A stretch of 51,443 nt of DNA. Origin: Parcubacteria group bacterium RIFCSPLOWO2_01_FULL_48_18. Lineage in GTDB: Bacteria > Patescibacteriota > Minisyncoccia > UBA6257 > WO2-01-48-18. Shown piece by piece: positions 8,064 to 46,290 of this stretch. Below the pieces are notes generated by a model. The model had not been told where the DNA came from. It saw only the letters and a list, made by a program, of their open reading frames with translations, and searched no databases. Within the stretch, counting starts at the first letter, position 1. Each line of letters starts with the position of its first letter. The translations under genes were made by a program, and so were the position numbers. Where the stretch lies: contig MHXH01000021.1 in the NCBI GenBank assembly GCA_001824435.1, positions 1 to 51,443 of the forward strand, in the 5' to 3' direction.

Positions 8064-8621
8064 TTAATTCGTAGGTTTTCCCAATTCTACGCGTGACCAT
8101 GGCACTCCGATTTTTGGCAATAACCAACGGTCTAATCCCCACCAACCAGCAGTTTTCCAGGCGAGAATAAGCAGGACTGCTAATAAGAACAAAACAGGAT
8201 TTGTAGACGCAACACCCGCCAGCATAAAATTTAAATTCATAAACGCGCCAAGGGCAGCAACAATGCCGACAAATACTCCAAGAATGAGCGCGATGCCAAC
8301 CAGCAACTCACCCCATGCAATCAAGGGTGCGAACCATGATTCAGCTTTAATATTAATCAAAAACTGTAGAAAAACACGGTACCAATCATAAGTAATAGCT
8401 GCCCGTCCGGTTTCAGGAATAACTACTGCGTTTTTCCAAAATCCCAAAATAGAATCGGGTCCCCACGGACGAGCGCCCGTTCCTAAAACCTTTCCCCACC
8501 CTGCATGTAGCCACTGCCAACCTAGGTACATTCGCAGTACAAGCCAAACAATACTCCACGCTCCAACTTCAGAGAATAGCTTCTGAGATAAAATTGGTTC
8601 CTTAACGATAACCTTTTTCAT
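8064..8621 (-). CDS. DoxX/DoxD family membrane protein
   Basis: 185 residues, about four membrane segments. The N-terminal LRMYLGWQWLHAGWGKVLG motif and the internal SWFAPLIAWGELLVGIALILGVFVG helix are typical of the DoxX/TQO small subunit DoxD family. The family includes subunits of thiosulfate:quinone oxidoreductase, but most members are uncharacterised, so only an oxidoreductase-associated membrane role is suggested. It is the gene after nirK on the same strand (67-base gap). Confidence 0.75.
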   Translation of the reverse strand: MKKVIVKEPILSQKLFSEVGAWSIVWLVLRMYLGWQWLHAGWGKVLGTGARPWGPDSILGFWKNAVVIPETGRAAITYDWYRVFLQFLINIKAESWFAPLIAWGELLVGIALILGVFVGIVAALGAFMNLNFMLAGVASTNPVLFLLAVLLILAWKTAGWWGLDRWLLPKIGVPWSRVELGKPTN

Positions 8622-8688
8622 AGTTTCAATAATTTATGATTTATGGATTTAAAATCTAAGCTTTTATTTTGCTAATATGAACAAATTT

Positions 8689-9858
8689 TTATTTTACTTG
8701 TTTGAAGATTTCTGGCTGTTCCAGCCCCTCTACAATAATCTCGCCGATCGCTCCTTTGTCAATCGCGCGCGAAAGACTATGATCAACCAGCAGATATTTG
8801 CCGGGCACCTCAACGGTAAACTCGACCATCATTGCGCCGCCGGGAGGAACAATGGTCGTCTGTACGTTCCTATGCGGAGGCGAAATAATATCACCCTCGG
8901 GGTAGAGGTTATCGAGCACGGCGCCGATGATATGAAAATTTGAAGCAATATGCGAACCGACGCCAAAGAATATACGGATTGTTTCGCCGACATTTGCCCT
9001 CAGCGCATTCTCGCCTGTAAGCGCGCCGACCCGGCCGTTGAAGGCAAAATACTCCGGCCGCTCCTGCTGCAATTTTTCCAAACTGAATGCTTGATGGCCT
9101 TTCTCGCCAGTCTTGCCTGCCGTGTACCATTCGCCCTGCATAACATAGTATTCACGGTCAACCTGCGCGAGTCCCTCTTTTGGCTCAACGAGAATCAAGC
9201 CATACATGCCGTTTGCGACATGTGTAGGAATATGAGGGCTTGCGCAATGGTACACATAAATGCCCGGACGCGTCGCCTTGAACTGGAATGCGCGCGTTTC
9301 CCCGGATGCGACTTGCGTCAATACTGCTCCTCCGCCGGGGCCTTCAACTGCGTGCAGATCAACGGAATGTTTGCTATGCCCTGCTTGCGTATGCTCATCC
9401 GATTCCCCGACGTGACCGCCGCCGTTCGCATATGCGTGGAGAGCGACTAGCGCATCAACAGCAAACGAGTGAAAAGGCGCTGCGGAATGTTGATCTCTTT
9501 GGCCATGATTCAGGCGTATTTCTACGGTATCCCCTTCTTTCACGCGAATGAACGGCCCGGGAACGGTGCCGTTGTATGTCCAATATCCATAAGTTACCCC
9601 GGGCGCGAGTTCGGCGATTACTTCTTTAGCTTCGAGTTCTACGACTATTTTTTGGCTTTCCCTCCTTACAAAAGGCGAGGGCAGATCATCAGCGCGTTTG
9701 CTGATATCTTTTACAGTAACTGGTTTTGCTGGCAGAGTGGTTTGACGCGTGATTTTATACGCAACTCCAGCTCCGACAATAAGAATAATAATGCCGACAA
9801 AAATCCAAATCTTTTTCACCCCGTTAGACATTTTTTGGACTTCTATATTATTCTCCAT
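8689..9858 (-). CDS. nirK: Copper-containing nitrite reductase, membrane-anchored
   Basis: 389-residue two-cupredoxin protein that would reduce nitrite to nitric oxide outside the membrane. Residues 17-36 are an N-terminal anchor. Type 1 copper ligands: H164, C205, H213 and M218; type 2 ligands: H169, H204 and H360. The catalytic pair Asp (D167 in HSVDLHA) and His (H309 in ASNFHIIGA) are also in place, so this is NirK rather than a laccase. An extra His-rich stretch of about 35-40 residues lies just before the first ligand (roughly 122-162). ATG 9858 is used; M10 (MSNGVKK, 9831) is an alternative and lies in an AACGGGGTG motif seen at other gene starts. Confidence 0.9.
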   Translation of the reverse strand: MENNIEVQKMSNGVKKIWIFVGIIILIVGAGVAYKITRQTTLPAKPVTVKDISKRADDLPSPFVRRESQKIVVELEAKEVIAELAPGVTYGYWTYNGTVPGPFIRVKEGDTVEIRLNHGQRDQHSAAPFHSFAVDALVALHAYANGGGHVGESDEHTQAGHSKHSVDLHAVEGPGGGAVLTQVASGETRAFQFKATRPGIYVYHCASPHIPTHVANGMYGLILVEPKEGLAQVDREYYVMQGEWYTAGKTGEKGHQAFSLEKLQQERPEYFAFNGRVGALTGENALRANVGETIRIFFGVGSHIASNFHIIGAVLDNLYPEGDIISPPHRNVQTTIVPPGGAMMVEFTVEVPGKYLLVDHSLSRAIDKGAIGEIIVEGLEQPEIFKQVK

Positions 9859-9945
9859 GTTCGTAATCGTTTAGTTTGTGTGACCCGAGGCGCGTCACCA
9901 ACGTTAAAAAAGCCTTATATGGGCTACTTCCCCTTCTTTATTTAC

Positions 9946-9975
9946 AGTATAGCAAAGATCGTGTGGTAACAACAA
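9946..9975 (-). promoter_or_regulatory. Possible promoter for nirK
   Basis: Minus strand: TTGTTG (9970-9975), 18-base spacer and TATACT (9946-9951), about 90 bases before nirK. The leader contains AGCC-CATATA-AGGCT followed by TTTTT, a weak stem that could attenuate. Confidence 0.4.
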
Positions 9976-23955: not shown

Positions 23956-23984
23956 TAAAAAAGCCTAGGCAATATACGCCTAGG
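23956..23984 (-). terminator. Terminator overlapping the stop codon of the 743-residue gene
   Basis: Minus strand CCTAGGC-GTATATT-GCCTAGG followed by CTTTTTT. The first arm includes the TAG stop (23980-23982), so the hairpin begins inside the coding region. Confidence 0.7.
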
Positions 23985-26208
23985 TTATTTTTGTATCAGC
24001 TTCCTCTTCCAAAACAGGAGCCTCGCTCTCAAGTGTCGCTAGAATGTCGTTGTTATCGAGCGGATTCTCCGGAGGAGCCGCGAAGTACGCGACCTCGCTT
24101 GCATAGACCCGGCTTGGGCCGTCTGGTTTCTTGAGCGCCCAAAGACGGACAAGTCCGATATGAGTATCCACGTCTTTCAGTTTGCTATCCTCAAATTGAG
24201 TACCACTAAGCACAGTGCCCGCCTGATGGCCGACTTGTTGGCCAAGACCCGGCTTCCACTCGTTAACTGAAACGCCGACGTGGAAGTTCGCAACAAGCAC
24301 CGCCTGACAATCTCGTGCAGAAACCATGTTCATGCACTTTTGCAAACGAATAGTAACAGTATCCGTCCTGGCGAGCGACGGATGGAACATATGTACATTC
24401 AAGCCCGTTTCCGGCAACGTGAAACGGTTGCAGATCTGGAGATGCTCACGAACCATCTGTCGAAGACCAATTTCAAAGTAGAGCCTGTAACGTGTCCAGA
24501 TGAGGTTTCGAATACTGTGGGTAACAAGGTCTACAAGCCGATCATAGAACTTCTCGAGCGGATCGACGCCTTCGTTTTTCGGCCAATCATCGTGATTTCC
24601 GATCTTGATCTTAACCAGGAGGAGCGCTTTTGAAACAAAATTGCGGAGTTCCTCTTGCGAAATATATTCGCGGGGCTCTTTCTTTGCCGCGTTGGCGTTT
24701 TCCACAGCTGTATCCATTACTGCCACAAACCGAGCGCGGAAAACCTTCAGAATGAACCGAGAGAAAAGCCAGGCCGCATGTTTTTCCTGACGGGTATAAT
24801 TCATGCCGCCATACACCTCGTCGCGAAGCATAAGCCGGTGATACAGCCCTACGATGAGGTCGCCGAGCGCTGCAACAACCGTGACGTTTTCCTGCAAAAT
24901 AATCTCCGGAAAGCGATTCAGGAAGAAATTACGGGCAAGACGAGGATGCCCGGCATGGAGACACCCGAATGTCGCAATCGTCTCAGTCGCGAGTTTTTCT
25001 TTCGCGGGAAAATTGTGTCGAAGTTCTTCCCGTAAGTACTTCGGGGCAAAATCGAGGCGGCCGGATGCTTTATCAAGCACCATACGATTCTTAAAATGAT
25101 CAAGGATGGCATCGAAGGCTTCCTTGGCCCGCGTTTTCGATATCTGCAGAAAGGTAGACGCCATGCCGATGGTAACCCCGCCACGCTGCTTTACGAGTTC
25201 AACAATTCGCTGTTCATCAGGACCGCATTCCGAAGGAATACGAATGGAATCCCGCTCATGCGTAGTGGCATCTTTCAGATTGAATGTCCGCGGAAGAATC
25301 GTGCCATCGGCGCGAACTTCCACCATCACAACGCCGATCTGGTTCTCGGAAGTTCCTACGTCGCGGATCTTGTGAAGATCCGGAAGCGAAATGTAAGGAC
25401 GCCTGGCTTCCCCGCCTTGAGGTTTATACATGCTCGAACCGACGCAACCGATTACGTAGAGATCCGGGTAGTCGCTGCCGGGAATCTCAATACTCGTAAC
25501 TTTAATGCTGTCTTCCACCTCGCGAGTCACGGGCGTCGAGTAATACTTGCCACGCCACGGCGCTTTATGCGCGCAGCGGACAAGAATAGTCTTACCCGTA
25601 CGCTTCAAAGGAAAAATCCGCTCGTTTTCTCCCCAATACTGGATATCGCCCCGGAGCTCCGTAAGGCGCGTCGCGATGTCCTTACCGATCTCGCCATCGT
25701 AGTAGCTCGACGTGATGACGAATATCTTCTTCGGCTTCTTTTTGCCGCCGGTGAGCTCTGGGATCACGCTGGCAATCTTTTCTGCCCATTTATCCACGAT
25801 ATCAGACCATGCCTCGGCTTTAACCTCCGCCACTTTTTCTTTCGTCAACGGCTTCTTCTTTTTTGATCTTCGATGACTATCGCGTTCTTCTTCAAGCGCC
25901 GCGCGGAAATGCTCCTCAAACTCGGCCTGGACGACCTTCCGTTCAATGATGCCGCCACCGACAATAACCGTATGTGCATCCCACTCATCGAGAAGGCCGA
26001 AACCAAGCTGGACAAGACCCTTGCGGTAACCGGAACTGGCAAAGTACGGCCGCGAAACAAATCCAATTCGGTCAAAGTCGGGTTTTTCGCCAGTCGATAT
26101 TTCAGGAATTGCCTGATCATCTTGGGACGAAACATCAACAGATTGAACAGTCGCAACCTCTATGGGTTTTTCATCACTAATCGCATCTTCATTCATCGCG
26201 CAGTCCAT
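23980..26208 (-). CDS. Tandem metallophosphoesterase-like protein with winged helix
   Basis: 742 residues, not assigned to a known family. The C-terminal half has calcineurin-type motifs in order: FGCLHAGHP (DxH box with Asp replaced by Cys), AALGDLIVG, IGNHDDW, ANFHVG and GHQAG. The middle (about 325-375) looks like a winged helix (QRIVELVKQRGGVTIGMASTFLQISKTRAKEAF). The N-terminal part shows an eroded echo of the same order (FVSRPYFASSG, VIVGGGII, VITSSYYDG, VIGCVGSSMYKP), which I take as a second, inactive phosphoesterase fold. ATG 26208 has AAAGGAG upstream. It follows the proteasome genes but is separated by a terminator. Function unknown; a nuclease-like or phosphatase role is only a guess. 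Confidence 0.72.
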   Translation of the reverse strand: MDCAMNEDAISDEKPIEVATVQSVDVSSQDDQAIPEISTGEKPDFDRIGFVSRPYFASSGYRKGLVQLGFGLLDEWDAHTVIVGGGIIERKVVQAEFEEHFRAALEEERDSHRRSKKKKPLTKEKVAEVKAEAWSDIVDKWAEKIASVIPELTGGKKKPKKIFVITSSYYDGEIGKDIATRLTELRGDIQYWGENERIFPLKRTGKTILVRCAHKAPWRGKYYSTPVTREVEDSIKVTSIEIPGSDYPDLYVIGCVGSSMYKPQGGEARRPYISLPDLHKIRDVGTSENQIGVVMVEVRADGTILPRTFNLKDATTHERDSIRIPSECGPDEQRIVELVKQRGGVTIGMASTFLQISKTRAKEAFDAILDHFKNRMVLDKASGRLDFAPKYLREELRHNFPAKEKLATETIATFGCLHAGHPRLARNFFLNRFPEIILQENVTVVAALGDLIVGLYHRLMLRDEVYGGMNYTRQEKHAAWLFSRFILKVFRARFVAVMDTAVENANAAKKEPREYISQEELRNFVSKALLLVKIKIGNHDDWPKNEGVDPLEKFYDRLVDLVTHSIRNLIWTRYRLYFEIGLRQMVREHLQICNRFTLPETGLNVHMFHPSLARTDTVTIRLQKCMNMVSARDCQAVLVANFHVGVSVNEWKPGLGQQVGHQAGTVLSGTQFEDSKLKDVDTHIGLVRLWALKKPDGPSRVYASEVAYFAAPPENPLDNNDILATLESEAPVLEEEADTKIT

Positions 26209-26287
26209 CACGTACTCCTTTGTCGGTTGTCGAATTCCTACTTACTAATATAAATGAAAGGCGGTTGCTGTCAATAGAGTTTATTAA

Positions 26288-26318
26288 CAAAAAAGGCGGT
26301 TGCGCAATAACAACCGCC
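26288..26318 (-). terminator. Terminator after prcA
   Basis: Minus strand GGCGGTTG-TTATTGCG-CAACCGCC followed by TTTTTT, 13 bases past the prcA stop codon. Confidence 0.85.
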
Positions 26319-26330
26319 GTATGCATCGCA

Positions 26331-27047
26331 TTACTTTATCCGTCTTCGAGAAATCATCCGCCGCTTCCATAATACGCCGTCAGCTGTAATAGATACCACA
26401 TCAGCCCACTGACTTTCCCCCGGAAGATCAAATCTGCGAAGCGCCGAAAGAAGCACGCTCGTTCCCTTGCCACGAATCATCCATTGTTCAGCCCTTGCAT
26501 TTTTACATTCTTTATTCAGAAAATCGACCGCGCCCCTGCGCGCATCCTTACATGCATCGGTCTCAAGCGCAGCTCCGGCAACAACAAATTGCGAAAACGA
26601 TCTTACTTTACCCGAATAGTCGGACATCGAAAACTCGAGTGGCGCCTCAAGAGAAAAAACAGTAGTCATTGCGCCATACGGATACAGCGAATGCTCATAC
26701 CGCAGCTCGAACAAAAAAGAAATAACCTGATCCGCGTAGTGCTTAGAAACATATCGCGCAGTCACCCACGTCTTCAGATCATCAAGCTGGGAATTAATTG
26801 CCGTGTGCAGTTTTTCAATATCAGAATAGGCGCCGATGCTTGCGAAATAAAGGCGCTTATCGTATTCCAGCAGCCAATTCGGAAATTTCCTGCCGGTTTT
26901 GCCGACCCGCGACGCGCTTCGTTCATTCGCGCGCCGTCCGATGACAACGCCGTCTTTACACCAAATTGCGACAAGCAAGTGTTTCCCAATGTTCCCGCGA
27001 GCGCGTTCATCCTTGACCCGAATCAGGTCCGGCGTATGCAGTATCAT
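26331..27047 (-). CDS. prcA: Proteasome alpha-type subunit
   Basis: 238 residues. The N-terminal pattern RVKDERARGNIGKHLLVAIWCKDGVVIGRRA, then RLYFASIGAYSDIEKLHTAINSQ and an Ntn-hydrolase strand pattern, matches actinobacterial PrcA; it lacks a catalytic Thr1 as expected for an alpha subunit. Alpha rings gate the 20S barrel and dock the ATPase. The ATG at 27047 overlaps the prcB stop (TAATG) and has AAGGAG upstream. The C-terminal tail ends KRRMISRRRIK rather than the usual extended tail, so the docking end differs from Mycobacterium. Confidence 0.8.
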   Translation of the reverse strand: MILHTPDLIRVKDERARGNIGKHLLVAIWCKDGVVIGRRANERSASRVGKTGRKFPNWLLEYDKRLYFASIGAYSDIEKLHTAINSQLDDLKTWVTARYVSKHYADQVISFLFELRYEHSLYPYGAMTTVFSLEAPLEFSMSDYSGKVRSFSQFVVAGAALETDACKDARRGAVDFLNKECKNARAEQWMIRGKGTSVLLSALRRFDLPGESQWADVVSITADGVLWKRRMISRRRIK

Positions 27048-27910
27048 TATTCGCTCCTTGCGGTTGAAATCCGCTTCCACCGAGGATTCCGTTTCCGCCC
27101 CTCCTCATCGTCATACATCTTTCGGGCAATACGAAGCGCTCGTTGAAAATCAATGGAAGATACGCCATTTTGCTTTGCAACGCACACGGTCGCAGGAAAC
27201 AATTCCGGCGGAGCAGTAAAAAGATCAATGCTTGCGGCTTGATAGAGGGCGCGGATGGAAAGCGCCACCGCCTCTTGTTCGGTCATTCCTTCATGCCACC
27301 GGTCTTTAAGAATTGTCCGAGCGATAATGCCGCCGGATCCTACCGTATGGTATCCTGTTTCGCTTGCCTCAAAGCGCCCGCCGCATTCATCGAACGTGTA
27401 AATGCTTGGCTGTTCAACGTCTTCGGGATCCCAGCCCGCCAGAATAGGGACCGCAACATAATCCATCAAGGCGGCCAAAAGCGCCAATTCCTTAAAATTC
27501 TCCCGTAAAATATTCATCATGATCTCTGCCTGTCCGTCAATATATATCGGTTCCCCCACCAATCGTTGCAAATGAGTCCACTGTTCATCAAAAGCGTCAA
27601 TCAATTCCTGTATATATGCGACAGTCCCTGCCGCGCCAAGCAAAGAGTATGGTCCGACCCTATGCACCTTCACCTCTTCATCCCAATGTTCACGATGGTC
27701 AGACGCGCGCCGATCGCCTGCCATTAATACGCCGTCGCGAAATCGAAGAGCAACAATGGTTGTTCCGGTATACAGCCGCCTGCCGCGCGCGGACAGTAAC
27801 GCATTGCGAAAATGATTTGCATCGCCAACCATCGCTTCCAGCGAACGAAGCCTGGTGTTTCGGCGTTGAAACGGACCGTACCGATCGAGAAATCGCTCTT
27901 GCGTCGCCAT
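27047..27910 (-). CDS. prcB: Proteasome beta-type subunit (catalytic)
   Basis: 287 residues with a propeptide of about 49 residues ending YTG, after which the mature chain begins TTIVALRFRDGVLMAGDRRAS (Thr50 as the nucleophile). Asp66 and Lys81 take the positions of the catalytic Asp17 and Lys33. SLLGAAGTVAYIQEL and HTVGSGGIIARTILKD are further beta-subunit marks. HslV would be about 175 residues, so PrcB is the better fit. GGAGGT precedes ATG 27910. No Pup, Dop, PafA or Mpa/ARC gene is in the window, so substrate delivery is unknown. Confidence 0.88.
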   Translation of the reverse strand: MATQERFLDRYGPFQRRNTRLRSLEAMVGDANHFRNALLSARGRRLYTGTTIVALRFRDGVLMAGDRRASDHREHWDEEVKVHRVGPYSLLGAAGTVAYIQELIDAFDEQWTHLQRLVGEPIYIDGQAEIMMNILRENFKELALLAALMDYVAVPILAGWDPEDVEQPSIYTFDECGGRFEASETGYHTVGSGGIIARTILKDRWHEGMTEQEAVALSIRALYQAASIDLFTAPPELFPATVCVAKQNGVSSIDFQRALRIARKMYDDEEGRKRNPRWKRISTARSE

Positions 27911-27992: not shown

Positions 27993-29462
27993 TCACTCCT
28001 CATTCCTATGCGGCTTTCCCTCAAGATACCCCGCTTCGGTTTGACGACGAAATGTGCCCAATGCTTTAAATTCATCCAAGGTATGCGCCCCCACGTAACT
28101 CATCGACGATCGCAAATGGCCAACAAGATCTTCGATGATAGACGAAACCTCTCCGCGATACGCAACGCGGCGCTGGATTCCTTCAGTCGGCCGCACATGG
28201 TCAAGGCCTCCGCCGTCCATCCTCGAAAGCTGCGCCTCTAAAGATGCAGAACCTCTGTAAATTTTCCACTTTTTTCCTTCTTCATAAAACGCCTCTCCCG
28301 GGGCCTCTTCAGACCCCCCCAAAAGGCTTCCAAGCATTACCGCAGATGCTCCGGCAACGAGCGCCTTAGCCACATCTGCGCCAACCCTGATTCCACCGTC
28401 GGCAACTACCGGAATATGGTGCTCATCCGCAATTGCGGCGCACTCGGCAATGGCCGTGAGCTGCGGCGTTCCTACGCCAGTTTCTTCCCTTGTCTTGCAT
28501 GCCGAACCCGGACCGATTCCCACCTTCACTGCATCTGCGCCCGCCTCAATGAGCATCAGCGCCGCCTCCGGCCGGTCAATATTTCCCACAACGATCGGCA
28601 ATTCATTGAATGCCGCGCGAATTTCTTTCAGCAATGCCTCAACCGGATCGGCGAACGCGCGCGCCGTATCAATAAGCAGCACGTCCATTCCGGCTTTCAC
28701 TAACTGATCAACATCAGAAAGGATATTATTCCTATGCGCGCCAATCGTCGCGCCAACCAATAGACGCCCCTTTTTATCCCGCACGGCACTGCGATATTGC
28801 GCCGCCTTTATAATATCCTTTGCCGTAATAAGGCCTGCGACTTTTCCTGCTTTGTCCACGAGCGGCAATTTTTCAACCTTATACTGACGCAACAGGACAC
28901 GCGCGCTCTCTTTTGTCGTATCGGGCGAGCCGACAACAAGCGGCATCGGAGTCATCGCTTCTTTCACGTACAAAGAAAGGTCCTCTTGAAGCCGCATGTC
29001 GCGCGATGTCAAAATACCAACAAGTTTTCCTTCTTCGTCAACAACAAGAAGGCCAGAAATCTGATAGGCGTCCATGAGTGCTCTGGCATCGGAGAGCCGC
29101 TCTGAAAATCGAATGGTGATCGGTTTTTCGATAATGCTCGAGTCTGCGCGCTTGACCCTTTTTACTTCTTCAACGCGTTTTTCAATCGGCAAAAATTGGT
29201 GGATAAAACCAAGGCCGCCGAGCCGCGCCAGGGCGATCGCCATCCGCGAATCTGTAATATCAGGCATGTTCGCCGAGACGATCGGGATATTCAAAAAAAT
29301 GTCCCGCGCCAGACGGGTTTTGAAATTGCCAATATCGCGCCGCGATGCAATGTCTGATTTACGGTCAATAATGCAAACGTCATTAAACGAAACCGCGATA
29401 TCAACCGGAAGCCCTTTCGCAGAGAGCCGCGCTTCAATTTTCTGCCGCAATTGATCGTCCAT
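27993..29462 (-). CDS. guaB: IMP dehydrogenase with CBS domains
   Basis: Oxidises IMP to XMP, the first committed step to GMP. The barrel is split by two CBS domains (about residues 115-235). The catalytic-loop [20 protein letters not shown] contains the active Cys. The flap segment with the catalytic Arg-Tyr pair and [15 protein letters not shown] is near 390. About 489 residues. Start either ATG 29462 or GTG 29474; no clear ribosome binding site chooses between them. Likely in one unit with the phosphoribosyltransferase. Confidence 0.95.
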
Positions 29463-29546
29463 AGTCACCACCACATATTATAAACCCATAAAGAATGTCC
29501 CTATCATGCATCTGTGGATAAAGTAAATCTCCACCCTCGCTTCCCA

Positions 29547-38530: not shown

Positions 38531-39385
38531 ATGACAACCGGGCAGCCGAGCCGCGAGATCGGAAAACCGCCCGATTGTCATGCGGCGGGAGTGGATGTCG
38601 GATCAACACAAACTAAAGCTATTGTAGTAAATCGCGGCGGAGAGATTATCGGGCGCAGCCTGATCCCTACCGGGGCAAATGTAATTATGGCCGCTGAAAG
38701 GTCTTTTCTTCTGGCCTTAGAACAGGCAGCAATCGATAGGACGAATATCGGCTGCATCATTAGCACGGGATATGGACGTTATAAGGTTGAATTTGGAAAC
38801 AACCAGATTACCGAAATAATGTGCCATGCGCGCGGCGCTATCGCTATATTTCCCGGCACGCAAACCGTTCTGGATATGGGCGGGCAGGACACAAAAGCGA
38901 TCCGCATACAGCCCGGCGGCGGCGTTGTTGATTTTTGCATGAACGACAAATGCGCAGCTGGTACCGGACGATTTCTCCAGTATGCGGCGGCGGCTCTCGG
39001 CATTAAACTATCTGAGCTTGGTCCGATGGCTCTTCGCGGCACGGACCCTGTCGACATCAGCACCACATGCGCCGTGTTTGCAGAGTCGGAAATATTGTCC
39101 TGGATGGCCAGAGGAAAAAAGATCGAAGACATCTTGCTTGGCGCGCACTACGCCATAGCGTCGCGCTCAATCGGGCTTTTGAGACGGGTGGGCATTGTCG
39201 AAGAGCTGACTTTCACCGGCGGTGTTACCCGCAACGAAGCCATGGTCAAGGTCTTGAGCGAGTTGTTGAAAACAAAGCTGAATATCAACGAAGACTCTCA
39301 TTATATGGGGGCTCTCGGCGCCGCTCTTTTTGCCCTAGATAGGGCATTGTATGTAAAAAACAAAGCCGCGAGCGGGAGTTCATAA
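38531..39385 (+). CDS. Activator ATPase of benzoyl-CoA reductase/2-hydroxyacyl-CoA dehydratase type, first copy
   Basis: 284 residues. ASKHA fold: [14 protein letters not shown] (phosphate 1), [12 protein letters not shown] (phosphate 2), and the conserved Cys residues of [11 protein letters not shown] and [10 protein letters not shown] that hold a [4Fe-4S] cluster between two subunits. It couples ATP hydrolysis to reduction of the catalytic subunits. The stop overlaps the next gene's ATG by one base. Confidence 0.92.
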
Positions 39386-40182
39386 TGATATACACGGCCG
39401 GAATAGACGTCGGCTCAACATACGTAAAAGCCATTATCCTTAATGAAAACGGCGACTTAGTCGGCAGCGCAATACACAGCACCGGATTTCTTATAGAAGA
39501 AACGTCCAAAAACATGCTGGAAGAAGCGCGCGAAAGAGCCGGCATTAATAGCGCGGATATAGGATGCATAACAACCGCGGGATTCGGTCGGAGTATGGTT
39601 TCCTTCCGAAACACGCAGGTAACCGACCTCATCGCTCAGTCGTGGGGCGTACGCGCACTCTATCCTGCAACGCATACAATTATTGATATCGGCGGACAGA
39701 CAATGAAGGCAATACGCCTTGACGACGGCGGGCGCGTAATGAATTTTCGCCTCAACGACAAATGTGCGGCCGGATCCGGGACATTCCTTGAAAAAACCGC
39801 GCACTATTTAGGATATGGAATTGAGGAAATCGCGCCTTTAGTCGAAAGGTCCACGAAGGCGGTTCCGATATCCGGCATATGCGCCGTATTTGCCGAGTCA
39901 GAAGTCATTAATCACATAAGTCAGGGCGAAAAACCGGAAGACATCATGCATGGAGCGATGCTTTCGTTAACCGAGAGATCCGTGAGCCTTATGAAGCAGG
40001 TGCAAATGCAGCCGGAATTCACGCTTGTAGGCGGCATTATGCGATTTCCCGTAATGGCGCGCGTGCTGCGCGAAAGTCTCGGGGGGGCGGCAAATGTTCC
40101 GCCTGAAAACTTGGCGCAATTCACGGGAGCTATCGGAGCGGCGCTCTTAGCGCGTCGCCATCTGGAGAAAAAAACCGATTGA
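39385..40182 (+). CDS. Activator ATPase, second copy
   Basis: 265 residues, a diverged paralogue of the upstream gene. GIDVGSTYVKAI, IDIGGQTMKAI, NDKCAAGSGTF and [11 protein letters not shown] retain the nucleotide and iron-sulfur sites. Two different ATPase subunits side by side are the mark of class I benzoyl-CoA reductases (BcrA and BcrD); 2-hydroxyacyl-CoA dehydratases normally use a homodimer. Confidence 0.92.
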   Translation: MIYTAGIDVGSTYVKAIILNENGDLVGSAIHSTGFLIEETSKNMLEEARERAGINSADIGCITTAGFGRSMVSFRNTQVTDLIAQSWGVRALYPATHTIIDIGGQTMKAIRLDDGGRVMNFRLNDKCAAGSGTFLEKTAHYLGYGIEEIAPLVERSTKAVPISGICAVFAESEVINHISQGEKPEDIMHGAMLSLTERSVSLMKQVQMQPEFTLVGGIMRFPVMARVLRESLGGAANVPPENLAQFTGAIGAALLARRHLEKKTD

Positions 40183-40279
40183 AAAAATCCGGACACTGCG
40201 GCAATTGAAGATCGCCCAAGTTTGTTATGTGCCTGCGCTCATTCAGAGTTCAGGCCTTTTTTAAACTTTTGTAGAAAAT

Positions 40280-40307
40280 TTGACAGGGTCCTGCTCGGTG
40301 CTATATT
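40280..40307 (+). promoter_or_regulatory. Promoter before catalytic subunits
   Basis: TTGACA (40280-40285), 16-base spacer, TATATT (40302-40307), 41 bases before the first catalytic-subunit gene. It implies a start of transcription separate from the ATPase genes. Confidence 0.6.
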
Positions 40308-40348
40308 GGTATTAGCAACTGAAAAATTCAATAACGAAAAGAGGTCAA

Positions 40349-41449
40349 ATGCACGAAGCGCTTACCTCTATTCCGTGCCGTCGGGAAATAATCCGGGCGC
40401 ACAAAGAAAGCGGCGGACGCGTGGCGGCAGTTTTGCCGATTCACTACCCGCGCGCTCTTTTTCGCGCATTTCAGATCCTGCCGGTCGAATTATGGGGTCC
40501 TCCGGAAATTGATCCGCAATACAGCAAAGCTCATCTCCAGCCTTACGTTTGTCCTCTTGTACACAATGCACTTTCGTATATCACCGGACCGGAGAGCGAA
40601 GTTTTCGACCTTGTTGCCGTTCCGCACACATGCGACTCTCTGCAGGGTCTTTGCAGCATTCTTACCGATCTCATCCTTCCGCGGCAGCCGGTTTTCCCGA
40701 TTTATCTGCCACGGGGCAGGCGGGAAAGCGACGCGCAGTTTCTGGCAAACGAATTTCACGCGCTGTATCGCAAACTGGAAGCGTTAACCTCGCTATCCCC
40801 CTCTGAAGATGAGGTGATGGCGTGCATTCTCCGGGAAGAGGACGCGGATGAAGTTCTCGCGGAACTCAACCGAAAGAGAAAGTTTTTACCGCTCTGTCAG
40901 CGCGACTTCTATCATCTGCTCCGGAGCCGCGAATATCTTCCGGCCGAGCGTTTTTGTGAATTGGCCAAATCATTCCTTGCGAAAGCGGAGAATGAGTCGC
41001 GGGACAAGGGATTGCCGATAATTTTATCCGGAATTGTTCCCGAACCCATGAGTTTATTTGAATTCATTGAACGCGCCGGCGGCGTAGTCGTCGCCGATGA
41101 TCTGGCGTGCTGCGGCCGGCGTCTTTACGGACCGGGCGAAGACAATGATGTATTCCGCCGAATGGCGAAAAGCATTCTCAGCGCCCCGCCGGATTCAACC
41201 CGCGGAAGTTCTATTCAGGAACGCGCGGATCATATGGTGCGCATGGTGAAAATGTCCGGCGCCAAAGCCGTACTATTTTACTGTATGAAGTTTTGCGAAC
41301 CGGAACTGTTCGGCCATCCCCCTTTAAGAGACGAACTCAATAAAATCAATATCCCAACGCTTGTTATAGAAAGCGAATTGAGTGAGGCCTCCCTGAATCC
41401 ATCCGTCGGGTCATTAGAACTTTTTCTGGAGACGATTCTATGCGGCTGA
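40349..41449 (+). CDS. Reductase/dehydratase catalytic subunit, BcrC-like
   Basis: 366 residues of the HgdB/BcrB-C superfamily. Cysteines possibly holding iron-sulfur clusters occur in YVCPLVH (C68), HTCDSLQG (C95), DLACCGRR and FYCMKFCEPE. Size (Thauera BcrC is about 385) and pairing with a 441-residue partner support a class I benzoyl-CoA reductase-like pair. It overlaps the next gene by 10 bases. Substrate could equally be a 2-hydroxyacyl-CoA. Confidence 0.88.
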   Translation: MHEALTSIPCRREIIRAHKESGGRVAAVLPIHYPRALFRAFQILPVELWGPPEIDPQYSKAHLQPYVCPLVHNALSYITGPESEVFDLVAVPHTCDSLQGLCSILTDLILPRQPVFPIYLPRGRRESDAQFLANEFHALYRKLEALTSLSPSEDEVMACILREEDADEVLAELNRKRKFLPLCQRDFYHLLRSREYLPAERFCELAKSFLAKAENESRDKGLPIILSGIVPEPMSLFEFIERAGGVVVADDLACCGRRLYGPGEDNDVFRRMAKSILSAPPDSTRGSSIQERADHMVRMVKMSGAKAVLFYCMKFCEPELFGHPPLRDELNKINIPTLVIESELSEASLNPSVGSLELFLETILCG

Positions 41450-42765
41450 CAGACGCCCTTCGCTACTACGTGAATACACGGGTGATGGGCTGGACCGCCA
41501 TCAGAGTAAATAGGTTGTACTCCGAAATGAAGACGCGATTCCGAAAGGAACGAAAAGACAGCTACACGGCGCCTCCTTTAAGAATTTCTTCGCGCACCAA
41601 AGAAATGATAGCCCGCCATTATTTGGACGGCCGTTTCGCCAAGCCCTATCGAAAAGTGGCATGGGTTACGTCGGGCGCGCCGGTTGAAATACTGAATGCG
41701 CTGGGGTTTCACCTTTTTTATCCTGAAAATCACGGCGCAATATGCGGCGTATCAAGAACCGCGGAGGAAATATCCGGCGAGGCTGAAGACGCGGGATACT
41801 CCCCCGATATATGTTCCTATGCGCGAACAGATATCGGCTCTGCCTTGTCCGGAAAAACGCCGGTCGGTAAATTGCCTCCCCCTGATATTCTCGTAGCATG
41901 CACAAACATATGTCAGACCGTCCTCTACTGGTACGGGTTTCTGGCTCACCACTTCAAGGTTCCGCTTATATTAATAGATACTCCGTTCATCTATACGGAG
42001 GCATCCGACCACTCTATAGAGTACGTGAAGAAGCAACTTGAAGCCGCCGTTCCGATCGCTGAGGGCGTTGCAGGAAAAACACTGGACGAGCGGAAACTGA
42101 AAGACTTTATGTACAAGAGCCGCATTGCCATGGATTTGTGGATGGAAATACTTGGACGAGGCGCCCATAGGCCAACTCCTATTTCGGCATTTGACCAATT
42201 CATTCACATGGCTCCCATAGTAGAAATGCGCGGCCATTCGCACACCATTGATTTTTACGCCGCAATGCTCAAAGAAGTTGATCGGCGTATCGCACATGGT
42301 ATCGGCGCGGTAAAGAACGAAAGAAAGCGTTTGCTGTGGGATAATTTGCCCATCTGGCATAAGTTCCGGTTTCTTTCCGAAACGCTCGGAAAACACGGCG
42401 TAGTGTTGGCGGCTTCCACGTATACGAACGCATGGGCCGAACTGGCTCCCATGATAGATCCGGAGAAGCCTTTTGAATCTGCGGCCCGCGCATATTTGCA
42501 CCCAATGCTCAATCGGGGCGCCGGGCATAAATTGAATACCATGCGGCGCATGATAGAGAAATACAGCCTCGACGGAGTCATACTTCATTCGGATCGTTCC
42601 TGTAAGCCGTATTCCATCGGTCAGATGGATCAACGAACCCTACTGATGTCAGAGTATGGTATCCCCGCGTTACTTCTTGAAGCGGATCATTGCGACCCGC
42701 GGTATTTCACGGACGCGAGAACGACAACCTTGCTTATGGCATTTATTGAAATGTTAGGACAATAA
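41440..42765 (+). CDS. Reductase/dehydratase catalytic subunit, BcrB-like
   Basis: 441 residues, second catalytic subunit. ACTNICQT (about 155), the C-terminal VILHSDRSCKPYSIGQMDQR (Cys ligand) and LLLEADHCDPRYF motifs are typical of BcrB/HgdA-type subunits. Near the length of Thauera BcrB (about 438). Ends the operon at a terminator. Confidence 0.9.
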   Translation: MRLTDALRYYVNTRVMGWTAIRVNRLYSEMKTRFRKERKDSYTAPPLRISSRTKEMIARHYLDGRFAKPYRKVAWVTSGAPVEILNALGFHLFYPENHGAICGVSRTAEEISGEAEDAGYSPDICSYARTDIGSALSGKTPVGKLPPPDILVACTNICQTVLYWYGFLAHHFKVPLILIDTPFIYTEASDHSIEYVKKQLEAAVPIAEGVAGKTLDERKLKDFMYKSRIAMDLWMEILGRGAHRPTPISAFDQFIHMAPIVEMRGHSHTIDFYAAMLKEVDRRIAHGIGAVKNERKRLLWDNLPIWHKFRFLSETLGKHGVVLAASTYTNAWAELAPMIDPEKPFESAARAYLHPMLNRGAGHKLNTMRRMIEKYSLDGVILHSDRSCKPYSIGQMDQRTLLMSEYGIPALLLEADHCDPRYFTDARTTTLLMAFIEMLGQ

Positions 42766-42789
42766 GAGCGGCCTTTTGGCTGCTCTTTT
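42766..42789 (+). terminator. Terminator after BcrB-like gene
   Basis: GAGCGGCC-TTTT-GGCTGCTC (one G-U pair) followed by TTTT, directly after the stop codon. Confidence 0.75.
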
Positions 42790-42813
42790 GCTTGGGCGAT
42801 TTTCGTTTATAAC

Positions 42814-42862
42814 GCGCAGCGGTGTCACCCGACCCGGTACCGGCCCTTGCAGGGCCGTTCTG
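42814..42862. repeat. Dispersed repeat, copy B (weak)
   Basis: GCGGTGTCACCCGACCCGGT followed by ACC and GGGCCGTT, resembling copy C (GTGTCACC...GGTACC...GGCCGTT). Its centre is replaced by a hairpin CGGCCCTTGCAGGGCCG. It lies between the convergent operons. Confidence 0.4.
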
Positions 42863-42882
42863 CCGCTCCTCCGAGTTTTATC

Positions 42883-42911
42883 AAAAGAAAAACGGACAGC
42901 TTGCTGTCCGT
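42883..42911 (-). terminator. Terminator after fused hydratase/dehydrogenase
   Basis: Minus strand ACGGACAGC-AA-GCTGTCCGT followed by TTTTCTTTT, 17 bases past the stop codon. Confidence 0.8.
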
Positions 42912-42928
42912 TGTATATCCAATACCTC

Positions 42929-44971
42929 TTATTCGCCGCCGAGGAGTCCGCGGCGATTCGGAGTAACGCCTGCCCCAAGAATGCAGGCAAGATCAACAAA
43001 TTTTGGCTGCTTGCAAAAACCTCCCGAAACAAGTTTCTGCGCGCTAATGCGCATTTGCTCATAAATGATTCCGGCAAGCGCATCTGCGTCCGCGCTCCCC
43101 GCGGGATCCGCCTTACTATGCCGTATCATCGCAAGGAAAACATCATTCACCTTTACGCGCTTTCCGCGTTTATCATATAGATAGAAACCGCCCCCTGTCT
43201 TTTGCCCGAGAATCTTATTTTCTCCGACGGCTTTGATGAACCGAGAGTAATCGTACGGCTCACGCTGATAGCATCGCCCAAGAACTTTCAACACGTTTAT
43301 GCCCGTATCAAGCCCGACCAAGTCGAGCGTTTCCATAGGCCCCATCACCATGCCCAGTTTCTTGAACGCCCCATCTAGAGCGTCCGGTGATGCCTCACCG
43401 TCAAGCAGGGCCTGCAAACTGAGCGAAAGGTACGGGAAAAGAACGGCGTTTACAATGAATCCGGGGCATGCTTTATCGAGTACGACCGGCGTCTTTCTCA
43501 TTACCCTCACCGCCGCCAGCGCTACCGCCATTGCGCGCGGCGAAGTATGCTCATGGCCCGCCATCTCTACCAGATCCATCATATGAACGGGATTAAAGAA
43601 GTGCATCGCCAGGAATCGCGTGACGTCCCGCAGCGCCGGCGTCAACTCCTCAAGCGGAATCGACGAAGTATTAGTGGCAATTACGGCATCCGGCCGCACA
43701 ACATTCTCCAGTTTTCCGAGAACCTTGTGTTTAACATCCACATCCTCAATAACCGCCTCAACAACCAAGTCGCAATCGCGAAACTCTTCGTAGTGCTCGC
43801 CCACTTTATGGGTTATCAGGCCCATTGTCCGTGAAGCATCTTCCTGGGTCATCTTCCCGCGTTTCACTGATTTCTTCAGAAGCGACTCAAAGAAAATAAG
43901 CGAATCATGAATTGATTTTGCCGAAAGGTCCTGGATGATTACCGGGATGCCACGCAAAGCAAGAACATACGCGATGCCTCTTCCCATGAGGCCCGCTCCG
44001 ATAACCCCGACTTTCTTCGGTGCGTCGGCGGTTTCAGACACCCACTGGCACGAACGCGCTTCCTGCTGGATGAGAAAAATGCTCATACAGCTTCTTGCCG
44101 CCGAAGTTCTCAGGCTCTTGATGAAAAGCTCGCGCTCTTTGGTCCATCCCCTGTCAATGCTCTTCGTGCTGTTCGCAACCGCATCACACGCAAAAATAAA
44201 CGCGGGATAATTGCCTTTCGTTTTCGCGAGCGTCATCTTCTTGGTAGCGCGGAGCATATACGCGCGAAGCAGCGAACGGAGTACCGGAATGCGTTCAACG
44301 CGCGGAAGCGAATGGGCCGCCCTCAGCTCGCCTGAAGCAAGCTGGAGCACGACTTTCTTTGCCTCATTGATGAGTTCACCCTGCTCGACCACACGATCAA
44401 CCAATCCGGCGCGCAATGCGCTCTTGGCATCAAGCGCTTTTCCTCCGACGATCATTTCGAGCGCCGTACGGAATCCGACGGTTCTCGGCAAAAACTGCGT
44501 TCCTCCAAAACCCGGAATAACGCCGAGTTTTGTTTCCGGCAACTCAAACCGCGTCTTGATCTGATTTGAAGCAATACGCATGTCGCAGAAAAGCGTCAAC
44601 TCGAGACCGCCCCCCAGACATTCGCCAGAAATGGCAGCAACGGTCGGAACCGGAGCATCGAGAAGACCTTGGAATATCTTCCGCGCCCTATTCAGCAGTT
44701 CCGACACTTTTTCATCGGAAGCATCCCGAAGCGCCCAAATTTCATTGATGTCGGCGCCGGCGCAAAACGACGTTTCTTTCGCCGATGCAATAACAATGCC
44801 CTTAATTTTATCAATGCTTTGCCATTCGCGGATATCCTGAAGAATATCATCGAGCTCATACAGCGCCTTGCCGTGAAGCACGTTCTGCCTCGGAGCGGAA
44901 TCTAGCCGTAACATCGCAATGCCGCCCTCAAGTGAAACTTTCCAAAACCGCCAACTCTGTCGTCCGCGCAT
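42929..44971 (-). CDS. Fused enoyl-CoA hydratase / 3-hydroxyacyl-CoA dehydrogenase
   Basis: About 680 residues. The N-terminal crotonase part has ISGECLGGGLELTLFCDMRI and PETKLGVIPGFGGTQ with both catalytic Glu positions; the C-terminal part begins GVIGAGLMGRGIAYVLALRG (NAD site) and includes FLAMHFFNPVHMMDLVE and the 3HCDH C-terminal repeats. The order is as in FadB/FadJ but the chain is about 40 residues shorter. ATG 44971 has GAGGAGGT upstream; the frame to 45022 is not used. Two bases after the thiolase stop, so co-translated. Confidence 0.93.
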   Translation of the reverse strand: MRGRQSWRFWKVSLEGGIAMLRLDSAPRQNVLHGKALYELDDILQDIREWQSIDKIKGIVIASAKETSFCAGADINEIWALRDASDEKVSELLNRARKIFQGLLDAPVPTVAAISGECLGGGLELTLFCDMRIASNQIKTRFELPETKLGVIPGFGGTQFLPRTVGFRTALEMIVGGKALDAKSALRAGLVDRVVEQGELINEAKKVVLQLASGELRAAHSLPRVERIPVLRSLLRAYMLRATKKMTLAKTKGNYPAFIFACDAVANSTKSIDRGWTKERELFIKSLRTSAARSCMSIFLIQQEARSCQWVSETADAPKKVGVIGAGLMGRGIAYVLALRGIPVIIQDLSAKSIHDSLIFFESLLKKSVKRGKMTQEDASRTMGLITHKVGEHYEEFRDCDLVVEAVIEDVDVKHKVLGKLENVVRPDAVIATNTSSIPLEELTPALRDVTRFLAMHFFNPVHMMDLVEMAGHEHTSPRAMAVALAAVRVMRKTPVVLDKACPGFIVNAVLFPYLSLSLQALLDGEASPDALDGAFKKLGMVMGPMETLDLVGLDTGINVLKVLGRCYQREPYDYSRFIKAVGENKILGQKTGGGFYLYDKRGKRVKVNDVFLAMIRHSKADPAGSADADALAGIIYEQMRISAQKLVSGGFCKQPKFVDLACILGAGVTPNRRGLLGGE

Positions 44972-44973
44972 GA

Positions 44974-46290
44974 TTACCTCCTCTCGACGAGAAGTGCTTC
45001 GCCTTGGCCGCCGCCGATGCACAACGTCACAATGCCCAGCTCGGAGTTTCGGCGCCGTAGCTCCAGGGCAGTAGTCAGCACAAGCCGCGAACCGCTTACC
45101 GCGACCGGGTGGCCCATGGCAATGCCGCCGCCGTTAACATTAAGTTTGTCCGTTACGGTATTTCCGATGGGGTGGCTGATTCCTAGCCGGTCGCACAAAG
45201 TCTGCGAAGACAAAATCTTGTCCTGCGCCAACACCACGGACGCAAACGCTTCATTTGATTCCAGCAGGTCAATATCATTCAGGCTCAACCCTGTCTTTTT
45301 CAAAAGATCGTGAATCGCAAAGACGGGACCGATTCCCATAAGTGAAGGTTCACAGCCCTTCGTGGAAGATTTCCCCGACGAAAACTCGGCAAGAACCGGC
45401 AATCCATGAGCAGCGGCAAACTCCTCGCTTGCAATAAGAAGCGCGCACGCGCCGTCGGAAACCTGTGAAGCATTTCCGGCCGTAACGGTACCCCCTCTAT
45501 TAAGCGGGCGAAGCGATGCTAGCTTGGAAAGCTCCTGATTGTGGCGCACGCCGTTGTCGTCGGAGATACCCCTGAAGGGCACGATCTCATCGGCAAACTT
45601 CTTCACGCGTTGTGCCGCTTCCGCTTTCCGGTGAGATTCGTAAGCGAACAGATCCTGCTCTTCCCGCGACACGCCGAATTCTATTGCAATAAGGTCGGCG
45701 ATCTTATCCATCCCCATTCCTGAAATAGGATCGGACAGGCCCGTCATAAGCATCCAAATGGGTTCGTATCCGAAATTCTTCTTCAGCAGAGGACGGTGTC
45801 CTCGCATCCAGATTTTCATCTGTGCGCCGAGAACACCCGCCATCTGTTTCACTGGGTTTTTTATGCGCGACGCTGCGAGCATTTTCTCATATAATGCGCG
45901 CTGCTGCCTGCCGAACACGGCAGTGTAATCGGACATAACTTCCACCGAGGGAACAAGAACGAGGTTAGCCTCGCCGAGTTCAATGAGTCTGGCGGCATAG
46001 ATTGCCGCGTGAAGACCGCTAGCGCAGTTAATGTTTACCGTCACGGCGGGAATATCCTTCGGCACGCCCGATAGTGTCGCGATAATGCGCGCCATATTGG
46101 AGCCGCCGGGGGGCAATACTCCATTCCCGAGGTTTGAACCGACTACCCAGTCAATATGCTTCTCAATACCGTCATATCGTTTTAAAAGCGCCTTAATCGG
46201 AGTTGTGCCTATTTCGACGGCATCAACGCCCGCCAAGGTTCCTGCCTTGAAGAAAGGCGTCCGCCTCCCATCGATTAACACCGCGGTCAT
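44974..46290 (-). CDS. Thiolase (acetyl-CoA acyltransferase)
   Basis: 438 residues. Nucleophile Cys in VNINCASGLHA, LLESNEAFAS, NVNGGGIAMGHPVAVSG (catalytic His) and TLCIGGGQG (acid Cys) are complete. It cleaves or condenses 3-ketoacyl-CoA. GGAGGAG is directly upstream of ATG 46290. First gene of the two-gene unit with the fused hydratase/dehydrogenase. Confidence 0.93.
   Translation of the reverse strand: MTAVLIDGRRTPFFKAGTLAGVDAVEIGTTPIKALLKRYDGIEKHIDWVVGSNLGNGVLPPGGSNMARIIATLSGVPKDIPAVTVNINCASGLHAAIYAARLIELGEANLVLVPSVEVMSDYTAVFGRQQRALYEKMLAASRIKNPVKQMAGVLGAQMKIWMRGHRPLLKKNFGYEPIWMLMTGLSDPISGMGMDKIADLIAIEFGVSREEQDLFAYESHRKAEAAQRVKKFADEIVPFRGISDDNGVRHNQELSKLASLRPLNRGGTVTAGNASQVSDGACALLIASEEFAAAHGLPVLAEFSSGKSSTKGCEPSLMGIGPVFAIHDLLKKTGLSLNDIDLLESNEAFASVVLAQDKILSSQTLCDRLGISHPIGNTVTDKLNVNGGGIAMGHPVAVSGSRLVLTTALELRRRNSELGIVTLCIGGGQGEALLVERR

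Follow-up and report, generated by a model that had tools for sequence, protein, structure and literature searches.

An orphan 20S proteasome core, an unlinked candidate unfoldase and a tandem phosphoesterase neighbour in a Paceibacteria genome

Bacterial proteasomes are usually discussed along with Pup or UBact. Here we examine a stretch of 51,443 nucleotides (the window, contig C21) from Parcubacteria group bacterium RIFCSPLOWO2_01_FULL_48_18, in which the proteasome subunit genes prcB and prcA (prcBA) are followed by a gene for a large phosphoesterase-like protein. Sequence comparisons indicate that prcBA encodes a genuine, divergent bacterial 20S core. We consider it probable that this core is fed by an ARC/Mpa-like ATPase encoded on another contig and works without Pup-type tagging, and that the phosphoesterase is functionally separate from it. 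The genome (G000; other G numbers denote comparison genomes and L numbers the loci compared) comprises 1.21 Mb in 29 contigs and is 95.9% complete. The host belongs to the class Paceibacteria, and homologues of the phosphoesterase gene carry names such as Harrisonbacteria, Yanofskybacteria, Giovannonibacteria and other Parcubacteria, in agreement with a first-pass annotation, made from the letters of the window, that had described a proteasome pair in a Patescibacteria-like genome. The nearest comparison genomes share only the order with the host.

The PrcB-PrcA pair and its relatives in the class

Profile searches with PrcB recovered PF00227 (E = 3e-27, 95.9 bits, above the cut-off of 22.4) and TIGR03690 (E = 7e-38, 130.6 bits, below the curated equivalog cut-off of 191.9). 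The protein matches both bacterial and archaeal 20S beta subunits, and its best relatives of solved structure are the PrcB proteins of Rhodococcus and Mycobacterium. A propeptide of 49 residues, the last being Gly49, precedes Thr50, and Asp66 and Lys81 align with Asp17 and Lys33 of the known catalytic triad. Across 23 aligned Paceibacteria PrcB sequences the threonine and lysine are invariant and the aspartate is present in 22, the single exception being an archaeal-like sequence with glutamate in its place. The profiles and this alignment bear out the propeptide, Thr50 and the matching Asp and Lys that the first-pass annotation had read in PrcB; likewise, the ATG of prcA overlaps the stop of prcB as TAATG at 27047, just as it had stated. 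The identification of PrcA as the alpha subunit is supported by its position and by similar genes lying directly behind PrcB in class-mates (L184 and L187), where these counterparts are likewise divergent. A profile-profile comparison of alpha and beta alignments gave a probability of 5%, the alignment being too poor. The pair shares with the actinobacterial Pup-proteasome the overlapping prcB and prcA, the beta propeptide with its catalytic threonine and an ARC/Mpa-like ATPase in the genome. It differs in that PrcA is very divergent, that the ATPase is unlinked and devoid of a GQYL-type tail, and that PafA, Dop and UBact were not found, Pup not having been searched separately.

PrcB-like genes were recovered from 7 of 244 genomes of the order and from 27 of 384 sampled genomes of the class (about 7%), a count that includes weaker matches, some of which represent a different single-gene family. 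They occur in three arrangements: 1) operons that join prcBA to ARC-PafA-Dop and in most cases include a small Pup-like tag (L193, L194, L196-L200); 2) prcBA next to argS, frequently accompanied by ileS and a degP-like gene (L185, L186, L188-L190, L192, L195); 3) orphan prcBA pairs, to which the window belongs. The operons of the first kind are from the same class and have a homologous PrcB with the same triad, but differ from the window in having PafA and Dop beside prcBA, usually along with ARC; a small tag with a GE or GQ ending is usually there too. PafA was not found in the stretches around the seven argS-type loci, so that a core without adjacent tagging genes appears to be usual in the class. 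These loci resemble the window in this respect but differ in location and in PrcB clade. In the PrcB tree the window sequence groups with that of G347 (support 96/90) and then with that of G255 (91/89), both orphan pairs with no pup genes nearby. The other PrcB genomes of the window's order fall elsewhere in the tree; this topology, in which many branches are long, suggests that PrcB was acquired separately within the order. A search of one literature collection turned up no paper on proteasomes in Patescibacteria or Parcubacteria.

PF03136, the PafA/Dop family, is also present in 7 of the 244 genomes of the order, none of which has PF00227, and the seven PrcB genomes lack PF03136. We rejected a mutual exclusion of PafA and PrcB, since with counts so small an overlap of zero is expected by chance (P = 0.81). 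Some further loci of this survey deserve mention. Three genomes without a detected proteasome subunit carry PafA/Dop loci (L147 in G073, L148 in G001 and L149 in G019). ARC is encoded in L147 and L148, and a small tag resembling Pup in L147 and L149; the three loci apparently represent Pup-type tagging without a proteasome. In L107 three adjacent genes replace prcBA, two of which have the proteasome fold by profile, the middle one being alpha-like by position. L068 holds an archaeal-type proteasome beta gene, with Glu for Asp17, between a prolyl-tRNA synthetase gene and a gene resembling archaeal aCPSF1, with Mre11/Rad50-like genes adjoining; this is either a contaminating contig or a block of archaeal genes taken up in one piece.

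A candidate unfoldase and a ubiquitin-like cassette

The first-pass annotation had noted that Pup or UBact, PafA, Dop and ARC/Mpa are all missing from the window. A search of the whole genome extends this for PafA/Dop and UBact: PF03136 had no match, while the same search found the Corynebacterium control, and UBact (NF033388) had no match even at E = 10. A composition scan of parts of the genome for Pup-like small open reading frames returned one antitoxin-like frame, which is unrelated; the Pup profile (TIGR03687/PF05639) was not searched. The ATPase is likewise outside the window, yet the hint that the core has no ATPase partner proved incomplete, for contig C10 encodes a 543-residue AAA protein that scores best with the profile of the proteasome ATPase family, TIGR03689 (321.6 bits over residues 71-513). 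It aligns to the solved Mpa over residues 104-512 and, in an alignment with two ARCs of the order, displays OB-type and AAA regions and a short, interrupted coiled coil. The core is therefore not without a candidate unfoldase.

The same genome also contains, on contig C18 (L065), six genes in one direction that code, in order, for ClpP, a Cdc48-like AAA protein, a candidate E2-like protein, a JAB-type protein, an E1/ThiF protein and a small ubiquitin-like (Ubl) protein (Table 1). Another prcBA-bearing genome (G005, L142) has these six genes in identical order, with a small protein that ends in GGN. Within the order, E1 homologues were found in 5 and PrcB in 7 of the 244 genomes, and the overlap of two has a chance probability of 0.007 in a test made post hoc. 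In a third genome (L067) a gene for a JAB/JAMM peptidase (PF01398, over the cut-off) lies divergently and directly beside prcBA. Phmmer searches of the PDB with the E1 of the cassette and the JAB protein of G005 gave no useful match. Further E1-JAB pairs were seen on inspection of the sequences in G000 itself (L143) and in G057 (L145), the latter with a 70-residue Ubl-like protein ending in NGG. Bacterial operons combining Ubl, E1, E2 and JAB proteins are already known (PMC1779556, in which ClpP or AAA partners go unmentioned), BilABCD being one such operon (PMC11354881). The cassette may be a bacterial degradation pathway of ubiquitin-like type that uses ClpP; as it has a protease of its own, any link to the proteasome is hypothetical.

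The tandem phosphoesterase and the gene order of the window

An AlphaFold2 model of the phosphoesterase-like protein (11 sequences; pTM 0.76, mean pLDDT 77.6) places a winged helix (residues about 331-388) between two units, the strand and helix order of residues 46-311 recurring in 408-710. Foldseek searches with the whole chain recovered purple acid phosphatase and Mre11 (E = 1e-6), along with the B subunits of DNA polymerases delta and epsilon, Vps29 and LpxH; phage proteins carrying the annotation DNA polymerase II small subunit were matched too. Because the query was the whole chain, it is the strand and helix repeat that points to a metallophosphoesterase (MPE)-like fold in both halves. 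Model and matches accord with the two phosphoesterase folds and the winged helix proposed in the first-pass annotation. Searches of the PDB with the sequence and its profiles gave no match, or weak ones mostly to winged helices.

Metal-ligand motifs are seen in the C-terminal unit (C417-x-H419, G450-D451, G538-N539-H540, H610 and N642-F643-H644), where the motif residues are invariant in 14 of 14 homologues, a second alignment confirming the Cys-x-His; the N-terminal unit (about 46-311) has none. Measured against the full DxH-GD-GNH-H-GHxH ligand set, all homologues have CxH for DxH and NFH for GHxH. The GCLH in place of DxH that had been singled out as odd was thus correctly read; being invariant, it is a trait of the family and no oddity of the window gene. 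The C-terminal unit shares its fold and the GD, GNH and His motifs with the metallophosphoesterase superfamily (Mre11/SbcD, DNA polymerase B subunits, purple acid phosphatases and Vps29), from which the protein differs by its two units per chain, the ligand-free N-terminal unit, the cysteine for the first aspartate and the NFH for GHxH. Its activity is probably that of a metal-dependent phosphoesterase or nuclease which the winged helix guides to nucleic acid.

Full-length or nearly full-length homologues occur in about 20 of the 244 genomes of the order, most of which have no proteasome. IMP dehydrogenase is encoded by the next upstream gene in L018, L023, L024, L025 and the Giovannonibacteria locus L123, and other loci have genes for a Clp-type AAA protein and/or PCMT nearby, without prcBA. 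Within the order, prcBA lies beside the phosphoesterase gene in the window genome alone, where it is situated between guaB and that gene. The 119 bases separating prcA from the phosphoesterase gene on the same strand contain a strong terminator, an 11/12 promoter-like site and a ribosome-binding-like AGGAG. These features and the synteny led us to reject the phosphoesterase as a partner of the proteasome, and with it the earlier hint that the two belong together; the gene is probably a separate transcription unit without a link to the proteasome.

Table 1. Features of the window and of the compared loci
Feature	Position	Strand	Details
guaB, IMP dehydrogenase	27993..29474	-	directly in front of the phosphoesterase gene in several relatives
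prcB, proteasome beta subunit	27047..27910	-	287 aa; propeptide 1-49, catalytic Thr50, Asp66, Lys81
prcA, divergent proteasome alpha subunit (supported by position)	26331..27047	-	238 aa; start overlaps prcB stop (TAATG)
Intrinsic terminator-like hairpin	26295..26318	-	just behind prcA; 9 pairs, 6 GC, T-tail
Promoter-like site	26247..26274	-	TTGACA-16-TATATT, in front of the phosphoesterase gene
Tandem metallophosphoesterase-like protein	23980..26211	-	743 aa; two MPE-like units around a winged helix
Benzoyl-CoA reductase or 2-hydroxyacyl-CoA dehydratase type and beta-oxidation genes of the window	38531-46290		see text
Ubl cassette, G000 (L065)	C18, 13126-18725	-	six genes
Cassette ClpP	C18		PF00574, E = 5e-28
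Cassette Cdc48-like AAA	C18		629 aa
Cassette candidate E2-like protein	C18		417 aa; assigned by a conserved His...Cys motif only
Cassette JAB-type protein	C18		Prok-JAB, E = 1e-4, just under the cut-off; HxH-x7-SxxD present
Cassette E1/ThiF protein	C18		E = 3e-15
Cassette small Ubl protein	C18		ends in GGK
Ubl cassette, G005 (L142)	G005:C1, 6890-13094		six genes
JAB/JAMM peptidase beside prcBA (L067)	G016:C14, 9108-9668		divergent to prcBA
E1-JAB pair (L143)	G000:C17, 8381-9750
E1-JAB pair (L145)	G057, 8345-9947
Archaeal-type beta gene locus (L068)	G089:C2, 8239-12462
Three genes in place of prcBA (L107)	G034:C55, 9637-12027

Elsewhere in the window lie genes for two BcrAD/BadFG ATPases, two HGD-D subunits, a FadB-like protein and a thiolase. 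These are enzymes of the benzoyl-CoA reductase or 2-hydroxyacyl-CoA dehydratase type and of beta-oxidation, unexpected for a Paceibacteria genome.

Competing explanations and significance

In the scenario that we favor as probable, prcBA would have been inserted between the older neighbors guaB and the tandem-MPE gene. PrcB would be cut before Thr50 to mature and would then hydrolyze peptides, and PrcA would make the outer gating rings. Substrates would most likely be unfolded and fed in by the ring ATPase encoded on C10, and would be selected without Pup-type tagging, given that PafA and Dop are missing; the phosphoesterase, transcribed on its own, would have an unrelated function. Several observations weigh against parts of this scenario. 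PrcA has marginal similarity to PF00227 (E = 0.021, under the cut-off), and a single-sequence AlphaFold model of it (pLDDT 31) has no interpretable fold. The score of the ARC-like protein is below the curated TIGR03689 cut-off of 504.75; its gene is on a contig other than that of prcBA, and it ends in TLKQVRA, with no GQYL-type tail or C-terminal docking tyrosine, a tail that is also missing from most ARCs of complete Paceibacteria pup operons. The assembly, being 96% complete, may lack a pafA/dop locus, and the search for Pup covered only the composition of small frames in parts of the genome. Of the order's seven PrcB genomes, five (G000, G005, G011, G016 and G034) carry a homologue of the phosphoesterase somewhere, a share above its overall frequency in the order, and in G483 (L191), from another family of the class, prcBA lies within a stretch of the form IMPDH-HIT-X-ClpAAA-PCMT, X being an 873-residue protein with GD and GNH motifs.

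It is conceivable that the core works without ATP, for example by degrading unfolded proteins or through an activator that is no ATPase, and that the ARC-like ATPase is unrelated to it. The unlinked gene without a docking motif would fit this, as would the four other PrcB genomes searched, in which ATPase matches rise no higher than the range of FtsH-type AAA proteins. We nevertheless regard it as unlikely, as the ARC-like protein scores best with the proteasome ATPase profile, other AAA families coming far behind, and the other PrcB genomes of the order carry only distantly related cores. That a normal Pup or UBact system is present and its locus was lost from the incomplete assembly seems quite unlikely. 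The ARC-like ATPase is there and class-mates do have ARC-PafA-Dop-prcBA operons, but in these the genes adjoin, whereas here prcBA and the ARC-like gene are on assembled contigs and neither is beside PafA. PafA is, moreover, missing from all six of the order's other PrcB genomes, whose completeness reaches 100%, and the coiled coil of the ARC-like protein is short and interrupted.

A bacterial counterpart of the ubiquitin-proteasome system, in which the Ubl cassette serves the 20S core in place of Pup, would account for the identical gene order of the cassette in two prcBA-bearing genomes, for the overlap of E1 and PrcB genomes (chance probability 0.007) and for the JAB peptidase gene next to prcBA in G016. 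We hold it to be very unlikely: the cassette is on a contig other than that of prcBA and, with an AAA protein and ClpP of its own, needs no proteasome; only two of the seven PrcB genomes have the E1; the PrcB proteins of G000 and G005 are only 24% identical; the E2 assignment comes from a motif; and the counts are tiny, with the test made after the pattern was seen. That proteasome and phosphoesterase form one functional unit is highly improbable. To the shared strand and short gap, the co-occurrence in five genomes and the G483 neighborhood are opposed the terminator and promoter-like site, an adjacency confined in the order to one genome, the lack of a proteasome in most genomes that have the phosphoesterase, and the match of the 873-residue protein to the family profile over 27 residues only. 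The G483 arrangement suggests that this neighborhood may be a landing site used more than once.

In this small genome, where neither PafA/Dop nor UBact is detectable, a core whose triad is intact has been retained, and in the class Paceibacteria prcBA is repeatedly found with no tagging genes beside it. This raises the testable question of how substrates might be chosen without Pup-type tagging, for which the Ubl cassette of the same genome offers one concrete candidate.

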